A DNA stretch of 64,000 nucleotides from Frankia casuarinae (GTDB lineage: Bacteria; Actinomycetota; Actinomycetes; Frankiales; Frankiaceae): positions 3,038,001 through 3,102,000 of the forward strand of contig NC_007777.1 in assembly GCF_000013345.1 (NCBI RefSeq). Direction: 5' to 3'. Positions 8,701 to 12,149 of this stretch are shown here, one piece after another. The notes beneath the pieces are model-generated. The model searched no databases. It had not been told where the DNA came from and worked only from the letters and a program-made list of their open reading frames with translations. The first letter of the stretch is position 1. Every line of letters starts with the position of its first letter. The position numbers were made by a program, and so were the translations under genes.

Positions 8701-9312
8701 TAATACCTCACATCATACACGACCTTGCGCGGCCAGGCTAGTGAAGCCGCACCCGGCTCGAACGAGAGAAACCGGGCGGGGCACAGTTGCAAATGCGAAC
8801 CGCCCGGGTTCGGTATGGACGCCATCATGTGAGAGATGGAGGTCGACGCCAATCGCCGTCGGCGACGGGGATGCTGTGGGCAAGGATGGCACGGACGTCG
8901 TTGGTGGTGAACGAGCCGTCCCGGCGGCTTCCTTTCTCGGCTAGCGGGTGCCGTCGGGTGCGGTCGAGCCAGCGGTAGCTGTCCGCGTCGACGAAGCAGC
9001 AAACCACGCGGACGGATTCGACGCCGGGACAGGTGCTGACCTTGTCCTCGACGAGGTCGCTGCTGGTCAGCCGTGCGAGGGGGAGGGCGTTCTTCGGCGT
9101 CGGGATCACCGCCTGCTCGGCGAGGCTGTAGCCGGCGTGGTGAGGCAGTGCTTCGGGGTGGGTGGGTCCCCTGCCGGCCCCGTGCCGGGTGTGCCTAGCC
9201 GTTTCGGCTGGTATGGGGGGCATGTTAACGCCGACTCGGCTACGGTGGGTTCGGTGCGCCGGGAAGTCTGGTCGGCAACGTGTGACCCGACCCCTTGGTG
9301 AGGAGCACCGCC
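8701..9312. other. Intergenic region between glbN and nhaA, 612 bp
   Basis: The minus strand at 8825-9223 has an open frame of 132 codons with some protein-like character (RLTSSDLVEDKVSTCPGV, SFTTNDVRAILAHSIPVADG), but no family, ribosome site or neighbour supports it as intact. It could be a decayed gene. No RNA gene is seen. The last 15 bases hold the nhaA ribosome site. Confidence 0.3.
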
Positions 9313-10641
9313 GTGGGCCAAGTTCCGTCTCGCCGGTTCAGCCTGTTCGACCGCAGGTCGTGGCCCGAGGCTCGCCGGATCGCCGAGATCCTACGCAGGG
9401 AGGCCATCGGTGGCGGGCTGCTGCTCGCCGCGACGGTCCTGGCCTTGGGCTGGGCGAACTCGCCGTGGTCAGAGTCGTACCAGTCGATGCTGTCCTACCA
9501 GCTCGGCCCGTCCTGGGCGCACCTGGACCTCACCCTGGCTCAGTGGGCCGCCGACGGCCTGCTAGCGATCTTCTTCTTCGTTGCCGGGCTGGAACTCAAA
9601 CGCGAGTTCATCGCCGGAGACCTCCGCGACCCTCGGCGGGCCGCTGTCCCGGTCCTGGCCGCCTGCGGGGGTGTCGCCGTTCCGGCCGTGCTGTACGCGC
9701 TGGTCAACGTCGGCGGTGACGCCTCAGCGGGCTGGGCGATCCCGACCGCCACCGACATCGCCTTCGCGCTGGCGGTGCTGGCGGTCATTGGCCGGCACCT
9801 GCCGTCCGGTCTGCGGACCTTCCTGCTCACCCTCGCGGTCGTCGATGACCTGCTCGCCATCGTCATCATCGCCGTCGTCTACACCCGCCACCTGTCGATC
9901 CTCCCGTTGCTGGGCGCGCTGGTGCCGCTGGCGTTGTTCACTCTGCTGGTCCAGCGCCGGGTGCGCTCGTGGTGGCTCCTCCTGCCCTTGGCCGCCGCGA
10001 CCTGGACACTGGTCCACGCCTCCGGCGTGCACGCCACCGTGGCTGGCGTGCTGCTGGGGTTTGCCGTGCCGGTGCTCCGCGGTACCCGTGCCGGCGGCCC
10101 GGAGGCGGGACCGGGGCTGGCCGAGCACTTCGAGCACCGCTGGCGGCCCCTGTCGGCCGGGGTGGCGGTGCCGATCTTCGCGTTCTTCTCCGCCGGAGTC
10201 ACCGTCGATGGCCTGAGCGGACTGAGCGCGGCGCTGAGCGACCGGGCGGCCCTCGGTGTCGTGCTCGGTCTCGTCGTCGGCAAGCCTCTGGGGATCATGG
10301 CCGCTACCTTCCTGGTAGCACGCTTCACTCGCGCCACCCTCGACGACGGGTTGACCTGGACCGACGTTCTCGGGCTCGCGGTCTTGGCCGGTATCGGATT
10401 CACCGTCTCCCTGCTCATCGGCGAACTGGCCTTCGGGAGCGGCAGCGCACGTGACGACCATGTCAAGATCGCTGTCCTGACGGGTTCTCTGCTCGCCGCC
10501 CTGCTCGCCGCCGTCGTGCTACGTCTGCGCAATCGCGTCTACCGCCGGCTCCAGGAAGCAGAGACCGCCGACCGCGACCACGACGGCATCCCCGACGTCT
10601 ACCAAGACCTGCACCGGTCCTCCCCACGCCCGTGGGGGTGA
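9313..10641 (+). CDS. nhaA: Na+/H+ antiporter NhaA
   Basis: Electroneutral sodium export coupled to proton uptake in the inner membrane. The 442-residue protein has about 12 membrane helices and the NhaA landmarks: [12 protein letters not shown] (T147, D148) and [13 protein letters not shown] (D178, D179), the two aspartates corresponding to the ion-binding pair. GTG at 9313 is chosen because GAGGAGCACC lies just upstream; TTG 9295 is less likely. The last residues after [15 protein letters not shown] (a calcium-loop-like DxDxDG stretch) are encoded by a CRISPR-like repeat (10617-10645), so the native C-terminus was probably replaced. Confidence 0.93.
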
Positions 10642-10705
10642 TCCGGTCCGGTCGGTCCGCTCGTGCAGCACCATCAAGTCCACCCCACGCCCGTGGGGTG
10701 TTCCG
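10617..10705. CRISPR. Two-repeat degenerate CRISPR (type I-E-like), one 32-nt spacer
   Basis: A 29-base unit at 10617-10645 (GTCC, then TCCCCACGCCCGTGGGGG, then TGATCCG) is followed by exactly 32 unrelated bases (10646-10677) and a second, 28-base copy at 10678-10705 with the same GTCC start, CCCCACGCCCGTGGGG hairpin core and TTCCG end. A length of 29 + 32 and a GC hairpin in the repeat are typical of type I-E arrays (established knowledge). The second copy has substitutions and a one-base loss, as expected of a terminal repeat. No cas gene is in the window. The first repeat overlaps the end of nhaA. Confidence 0.6.
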
Positions 10706-10813
10706 CCCTCGGCAATCGAACAGGTGACGCACAGGTAACACACAGGACCGACTCCCACCCTCATAGTCACGGGGCTCCTCCCGGAGCGCCGGCAGGGTAG
10801 GAGGACACCGGCC

Positions 10814-11095
10814 ATGGCCACACGTGAGCAGGGAATCCGACGGGTAGGCCCCGTCACCGCCGGACTGGCAGCCGTCGCGGCCGCCGGAGCCATCGGCTTC
10901 GGCGTGCTGGCCCATGAGCATTCCGCATCCGCGGCCACCTGGTCCTCGACGACGGACGACAGCTCGGTGACCTCGGGTAACGGATCCACCTCATCGTCGA
11001 CCTCCGACAGCGCGTCCTCGTCCGGCGGCTGGTCGGGCGGGACGACGGTGGGGAGCGCCGACGGTCCCACGCACGCGTCGACCGGTGGTTCCTGA
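10814..11095 (+). CDS. Small Ser/Thr/Gly-rich secreted protein of the ApbE cluster
   Basis: The 93-residue protein has one hydrophobic segment (residues 13-33, VTAGLAAVAAAGAIGFGVLA), then a purely low-complexity tail of Ser, Thr, Gly and Asp (about residues 42-93). The helix is either a signal peptide ending near SASAA or a membrane anchor that leaves the tail outside. Its stop codon is one base before the apbE start. Given ApbE next door, which attaches FMN to Thr/Ser residues of exported proteins, this tail could be the flavinylation substrate, but no canonical [S/T]GAT motif is visible. Function is inference. Confidence 0.65.
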   Translation: MATREQGIRRVGPVTAGLAAVAAAGAIGFGVLAHEHSASAATWSSTTDDSSVTSGNGSTSSSTSDSASSSGGWSGGTTVGSADGPTHASTGGS

Positions 11096-11096
11096 G

Positions 11097-12149
11097 ATGC
11101 CCGGCGCGGCAGCGGCGGTCGAGTGGTCGGTGTGGAGCACGACCGCCCGGCTCGTGGTGACCGAGCCCGGCGCACTGGCCGCCGCCCGGGAGATCGTCGT
11201 GGACCATCTCGCGGCCGTTGACGAGGTCGCCAGTCGTTTCCGGGCCGATGCGGAGATCAACCAGCTCGATCACGCCGATGGGACGCCGCAACGGATCAGC
11301 CCGCTACTGGCAGACCTCGTCGGTGCGGCGCTCCTCGCGGCCCGGCGCACCGACGGGGACGTAGACCCGACCGTCGGCGGACCGCTCGCCGCTCTCGGCT
11401 ACGACCGGGACATCACGTTGCTGCCGTCGGACGGTCCGCGGCTGCGGGTGGTGCACCGGCCGGCGCCGGGCTGGCAGCGGATCCGGCTGACCGGGAACAC
11501 ACTGACGCTGCCGGACGACGCGCGGCTCGACCTCGGAGCGACGGCGAAGGCGCAGGCCGCCGACCGCTGCGCCGCTCTGGTCGCCGAACGGCTCGACACC
11601 GGCGTGCTGGTCAGCCTCGGCGGGGATGTCGCCACCGCCGGGAACGCGCCGGAGGGCGGCTGGCGCATTCGGGTCCAGGACCGCCCGGGCGAGCCCGCCT
11701 GCACCATCACCCTGGCCGCCGGGAGCGCGGTCGCGACGTCCAGCACCCTCGGGCGGCGGTGGCGGCGCGGCGGGCGGCTCCTGCACCACATCCTGGATCC
11801 GCGCACCTGCCAGCCCGCGCCGGTGGTCTGGCGGACCGCCACCGTGGCGGCCGCGAGCTGCCTCGACGCGAACACGGCGAGCACCGCCGCGATCGTCCGT
11901 GGTTCCGCGGCGGTGGGCTGGCTGCGCCGGCTCGGGATGCCGGCACGGCTCGTCGCCACGGACGGCTCGATCGTCACGACCGCTGGCTGGCCCGCCCCGA
12001 GCCGGGCCAAGGTGGCCGGAGCCGGAGTGGCCGGAGCCGGAGTGGCCGGGGTCCGGGTAGACCGGGCCGAGACGGCTCCGCCCGCCGAGGATGGAACCCG
12101 AGTCACGTCCGCTGGATCGGCGACACGGCCGAGAGGTTCCGGCCGATGA
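11097..12149 (+). CDS. apbE: ApbE-family FAD:protein FMN transferase
   Basis: ApbE transfers FMN from FAD to a Thr/Ser of an extracytoplasmic electron carrier, using Mg2+. Motifs in order: DPTVGG near residue 86, LDLGATAKAQAADRCA near 143 (usual D-x-G-x-x-A-K-G), VSLGGDVATAG near 170, LHHILDPRTCQP near 225 and the C-terminal metal site around ASCLDANTASTAAI. There is no signal peptide or lipobox on this one, so it may act in the cytoplasm. The Gly-Ala-Gly-Val repeats at the C-terminus come from a 15-bp tandem repeat at 12018-12047. It overlaps the next gene by ATGA. Confidence 0.88.
   Translation: MPGAAAAVEWSVWSTTARLVVTEPGALAAAREIVVDHLAAVDEVASRFRADAEINQLDHADGTPQRISPLLADLVGAALLAARRTDGDVDPTVGGPLAALGYDRDITLLPSDGPRLRVVHRPAPGWQRIRLTGNTLTLPDDARLDLGATAKAQAADRCAALVAERLDTGVLVSLGGDVATAGNAPEGGWRIRVQDRPGEPACTITLAAGSAVATSSTLGRRWRRGGRLLHHILDPRTCQPAPVVWRTATVAAASCLDANTASTAAIVRGSAAVGWLRRLGMPARLVATDGSIVTTAGWPAPSRAKVAGAGVAGAGVAGVRVDRAETAPPAEDGTRVTSAGSATRPRGSGR
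12018..12047 (+). repeat. 15-bp tandem repeat x2 inside apbE
   Basis: GGAGCCGGAGTGGCC occurs twice in perfect tandem and encodes GAGVA units in the poorly conserved C-terminal extension. The length is a multiple of three, so the frame is kept. Confidence 0.85.

Follow-up and report, generated by a model that had tools for sequence, protein, structure and literature searches.

The closest described counterparts of the locus reported here are type I-E CRISPR-Cas systems that share one 29-nt repeat. This repeat is designated R, defined as the 29-mer of repeat 1 in Table 1, and a I-E system that uses it is called R-type. An intact R-type locus reads, in order, array1 on the minus strand, cas3 on the minus strand, cse1-cse2-cas7-cas5-cas6-cas1-cas2 on the plus strand, a leader, and array2 on the plus strand. 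R repeats flank a complete cas operon in some relatives, and the Cse1 of that operon in Frankia sp. AgKG'84/4 identifies it as type I-E. Matches to R at three or fewer mismatches occur in 18 of 35 family genomes, several of which have long arrays built from R at a 61-nt period. The named holders of exact R are Frankia canadensis, Frankia sp. AgKG'84/4, Parafrankia sp. EUN1f, Parafrankia soli, Pseudofrankia sp. BMG5.36 and a metagenome-assembled genome (MAG) labelled Actinoallomurus; multi-unit arrays with 29/29 identity to repeat 1 are found in the first three. For Frankia sp. CcI3, a transcriptome paper lists four putative arrays, three of them long, with 38, 15 and 20 spacers (PMC3188489). 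The short fourth array might be the one described below, at the end of nhaA.

The window, meaning the whole 64-kb stretch of DNA analysed, contains a single repeat-spacer-repeat unit (Table 1). The earlier note had described two repeats of 29 and 28 bases around 32 bases, in I-E geometry, and both coordinates and spacing are confirmed, with 61 nt from the start of one repeat to the start of the next. Relative to repeat 1, repeat 2 lacks one G and carries two substitutions; the stem variant with four G is also found within Parafrankia arrays. As in I-E arrays, with their palindromic repeats of 28-29 nt and unique spacers of 32-33 nt, the unit has a repeat that matches a bona fide I-E repeat in full and a 32-nt spacer that is unique in its own genome. 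Beyond the unit, the window has no further match to the repeat at three or fewer mismatches, and 100 shuffles produced none. Because the 29-mer is moreover identical to that of real multi-unit I-E arrays in relatives, a chance inverted-repeat pair, one of the origins first offered, can be set aside.

Table 1. Positions of the CRISPR-related features and of the flanking blocks, numbered within the window.
Feature	Position	Strand	Description
cas3 C-terminal fragment (pseudogene), R-type I-E	8842-9141	-	DNA and protein comparison with an intact locus
nhaA block (gene and upstream region)	9180-10616	+	homology to nhaA of Frankia canadensis
nhaA ORF	9295-10641	+	ends within repeat 1; NhaA by Pfam PF06965, E 2.7e-134
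CRISPR repeat 1	10617-10645	+	29 nt, GTCCTCCCCACGCCCGTGGGGGTGATCCG, exact R-type I-E repeat
Spacer	10646-10677	+	32 nt
CRISPR repeat 2	10678-10705	+	28 nt, GTCCACCCCACGCCCGTGGGGTGTTCCG, degenerate, array-terminal type
apbE operon block	10706-12149	+	upstream region kept in relatives; apbE 11085-12149

Comparison of the unit with repeats elsewhere in the genome (5,433,628 bp), a check the earlier note had proposed, found one other exact copy of R, solitary, at C1:5375108-5375136 on the minus strand, 2.3 Mb from the copy at nhaA; there are only these two. The repeat of the resident I-E system differs from R at 8 of 29 positions, in the stem and the 3' handle. The exact match to I-E arrays with a cas operon, together with the difference from the resident repeat, marks R as a genuine I-E repeat that belonged to a second system, now lost. 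It is very improbable that the unit is a retained mini-array still serving the resident I-E Cascade, in defence or regulation. The stem-loop is intact in both repeats, and read-through from nhaA transcription could occur, but the mismatched stem and handle, the missing leader and the failure to find a target for the spacer all speak against such service.

The earlier note saw no cas genes nearby, and here it has to be corrected. A C-terminal fragment of an R-type cas3 lies 1.5 kb upstream of repeat 1. Its DNA is 79-81% identical over about 285-300 bp to cas3 of the intact R-type locus of AgKG'84/4, and its translation shows 69% amino acid identity over 96 residues (E 3e-43), covering Cas3 residues 847-942, while the resident I-E Cas3 gives no match. 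Taken by itself, the fragment is missed by both Pfam and NCBIfam, so it is easily overlooked. These 96 residues are the only cas content detected in the window, by protein queries that were incomplete for cas7 and by a DNA search with the R locus that did cover cas7. In the genome-wide DNA search the fragment was likewise the only R-type piece found; the remaining matches to the R locus fall in the resident I-E locus, save one of 38 bp. Cas3 on the minus strand followed by the two-repeat array on the plus strand is the order and orientation of the intact R-type locus, with nhaA filling the place of the cas operon (cse1 to cas2) and leader.

The unit and the cas3 fragment are thus very probably the decayed end of an ancestral type I-E CRISPR-Cas locus. 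This reading draws on the closeness of the lone R-type cas fragment, at 1.5 kb, to one of just two exact copies of R, and on partial relics in other genomes, such as cas1-cas2-leader-single repeat in G003 C50. The suggestion of a minimal I-E remnant fused with a gene end is upheld by the exact I-E repeat, the canonical geometry and the R-type cas3 fragment close by. No leader precedes repeat 1, where the nhaA coding sequence directly abuts and the leader common to intact arrays is missing; for this reason the unit is classed as a relic rather than an active array.

On either side, homology to relatives stops right at the unit, give or take a few bases in the placing of the alignment ends. The nhaA genes of F. 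canadensis and BMG5.36 align as far as 10616, the base preceding repeat 1. Homology to three other genomes (G001, G004 and G011) starts at the base after repeat 2, and all three have a different gene upstream. The nhaA and apbE blocks are not neighbours in relatives; in the complete genome G001, nhaA and apbE lie at 2.1 Mb and 4.2 Mb, respectively. Repeat 1 does encode the end of NhaA, as first noticed: residues 442-448 (SSPRPWG) and the stop codon TGA at 10639-10641 lie within it. Comparison with the C-termini of relatives, also proposed at the outset, shows that NhaA of most close relatives ends in ...DVYQD plus other tails, with the repeats absent. Among 23 nhaA homologues, no 3' flank has convincing similarity to 10617-10830. 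A 17-base likeness to the 3' half of the repeat in the P. soli flank came near significance, a result to be expected among 23 tests, and was rejected.

These comparisons bear on an origin by off-site Cas1-Cas2 integration, in which a spacer inserted at the end of nhaA would have made a new mini-array. Off-site integration copies its target site, so that the two repeats would begin as identical copies, with no requirement to resemble a repeat already known. Such an event could leave behind a leaderless pair of similar repeats around a 32-nt spacer. Here, however, repeat 1 matches R exactly and repeat 2 does not, the nhaA ends of relatives contain no such site, and a cas3 fragment lies alongside. 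An exact repeat of another I-E system is not expected from target-site copying; off-site integration, raised in the earlier note, is not needed to explain the unit and is extremely unlikely. The solitary second copy of R was also considered as the product of an R-containing prespacer integrated off-site, and this was rejected when no flanking duplication was seen by eye.

Both repeats fold into strong hairpins (folding z -3.1), which could suggest a transcription terminator or regulator at the nhaA stop codon. No intrinsic terminator, that is, a GC hairpin followed by a U-tract, was found in 10400-10900, and the sequence is an exact I-E repeat. A conserved terminator pair had been put forward on the supposition that no matching repeat would exist elsewhere and that the hairpins would be conserved at nhaA; instead matching repeats do exist elsewhere, and the hairpins are absent at nhaA in relatives, which excludes a conserved pair and leaves very little probability for a terminator or regulatory role. 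An Rfam search returned the hairpins (10622-10729) as sub-threshold matches to Chlorobi-1 RNA, and no other match; the resemblance is likely a chance likeness of the CACGCC-GTG stem.

The decay of the locus can be pictured in three steps, in an order that is itself conjectural. The cas genes and leader would have been lost from the ancestral R-type locus, nhaA would have been fused, with nothing in between, to a repeat's 5' end, and array2 may have contracted as its repeats recombined, until the last spacer and the degenerate terminal repeat were left. Array rearrangements rarely involve terminal spacer-repeat units (PMC8047081), which fits the survival of R, a spacer and a terminal repeat. 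No counterpart of array1 was found. The neighbours of nhaA vary between relatives, so the gene could have come in independently of the loss of the cas genes.

A cause for the junction with nhaA might lie in spacer acquisition itself. In E. coli, Cas1-Cas2 nick the leader-repeat boundary during spacer uptake (PMC4081107). An aborted integration might leave a break flush with the 5' end of a repeat, which would then be end-joined to foreign chromosomal DNA, here nhaA. We consider this unlikely, and regard as similarly doubtful the broader proposal that leaderless I-E repeats mark rearrangement junctions and that CRISPR adaptation can break chromosomes. Boundary breakage would supply the decay model with a cause and not supplant it. 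In its favour, three leaderless copies of R have flanks that can be aligned, and in each the chromosomal homology stops about 0-5 bases from the 5' end of the repeat: the copy at nhaA, the doxX side of the solitary copy at 5375108, and a solitary copy in BMG5.36. The copy at 5375108 (L012:9109-9137, minus strand) has no partner repeat and lies between a CBS-domain-like and a doxX-like ORF, flush with a conserved region upstream of doxX; the Parafrankia doxX block resumes 0-5 bases from the 5' end of the repeat. In BMG5.36 (L138:4980-5008), a block 94% identical to a relative stops at the 5' end of the repeat, and the sequence on the opposite side has its match on another of that relative's contigs. 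The P. soli copy has no usable homologues for flank alignment. Were junctions spread randomly across the 61-nt period, three flush ends would arise in roughly 3 of 10,000 trials, a rough post hoc figure from three cases. Against breakage stand the small number of cases, found post hoc, an uncertainty of a few bases in the alignment ends, the lack of evidence for a double-strand break, and the 3' side in BMG5.36, which is not flush and has about 28 extra bases. Breakpoints between these genomes are also probably common, and synteny breaks alone prove little. A literature search on isolated CRISPR repeats and on CRISPR-linked rearrangement found nothing directly on point. Should flush repeat ends prove general, spacer acquisition would be linked to genome rearrangement, a prediction that can be tested in existing genomes.

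The spacer was searched for targets, following another suggestion in the earlier note, and no convincing match emerged. It has no second match at three or fewer mismatches in its own genome or in 34 family genomes, matches in phages and plasmids are at chance level, and its core has no exact match in IMG/VR. These collections contain few Frankia phages. Neither R nor the whole unit occurs in phages or IMG/VR; in plasmids there are weak matches, mainly from Streptomyces and Kitasatospora. An origin of the spacer in native DNA downstream of nhaA was rejected, a short likeness in G021 being no better than shuffles.

With leader, matching cas set, terminator signature and spacer match all absent, the array at the end of nhaA is, as judged from sequence, most likely inert. 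The only likely present effect of the relic is the altered C-terminal tail of NhaA. Since this SSPRPWG tail lies beyond the antiporter domain, which stops near residue 409 according to Pfam, little effect on NhaA is expected. A "questionable" one-spacer array can be shown to be a genuine CRISPR fossil when its repeat and a broken cas3 are matched with the intact loci of relatives, and the case documents the loss of one I-E lineage in Frankiaceae.

Two further degenerate forms were seen. In G001 (a genome of 7,497,934 bp), two degenerate R mini-arrays stand back to back at L140:4997-5336, about 98 bases apart, at the site where the intact locus has its cas operon and leaders. In the MAG labelled Actinoallomurus, an exact R, 32 nt and a degenerate repeat (L145:4590-5059) lie within an ORF that resembles an anti-sigma-type ATPase, with a marginal NCBIfam match only, and that seems truncated at the R unit.

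Among known systems, the resident I-E system (cas genes at about 22-32 kb, with Cas1 and Cas2 at 31-32 kb, and an array from about 32 kb) shares subtype, repeat length and 61-nt period with the relic, whereas its Cas proteins are only about 32-48% identical to R-type proteins. A second resident CRISPR locus near 3.97 Mb (L013:11222-12735) has 21 repeats with a period of 71-76 nt and adjoins a 529-aa open frame with a Cas1 domain. R-type I-E remains occur in G003, G008 and G012, none with all the cas genes in the part that was read; these keep a leader, as the single repeat of G003 C50 does, in contrast to the window copy. The nearest intact system, on contig NODE_61 (L132) of AgKG'84/4, has a complete cas operon, leaders and two divergent arrays of 38 and 24 repeats, where the window has a cas3 fragment, one spacer, two repeats, no leader and nhaA in between. 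The two are alike in the identical 29-nt repeat (array2), the 32-nt spacers, the homologous cas3, and the way in which cas3 and array2 are ordered and oriented.
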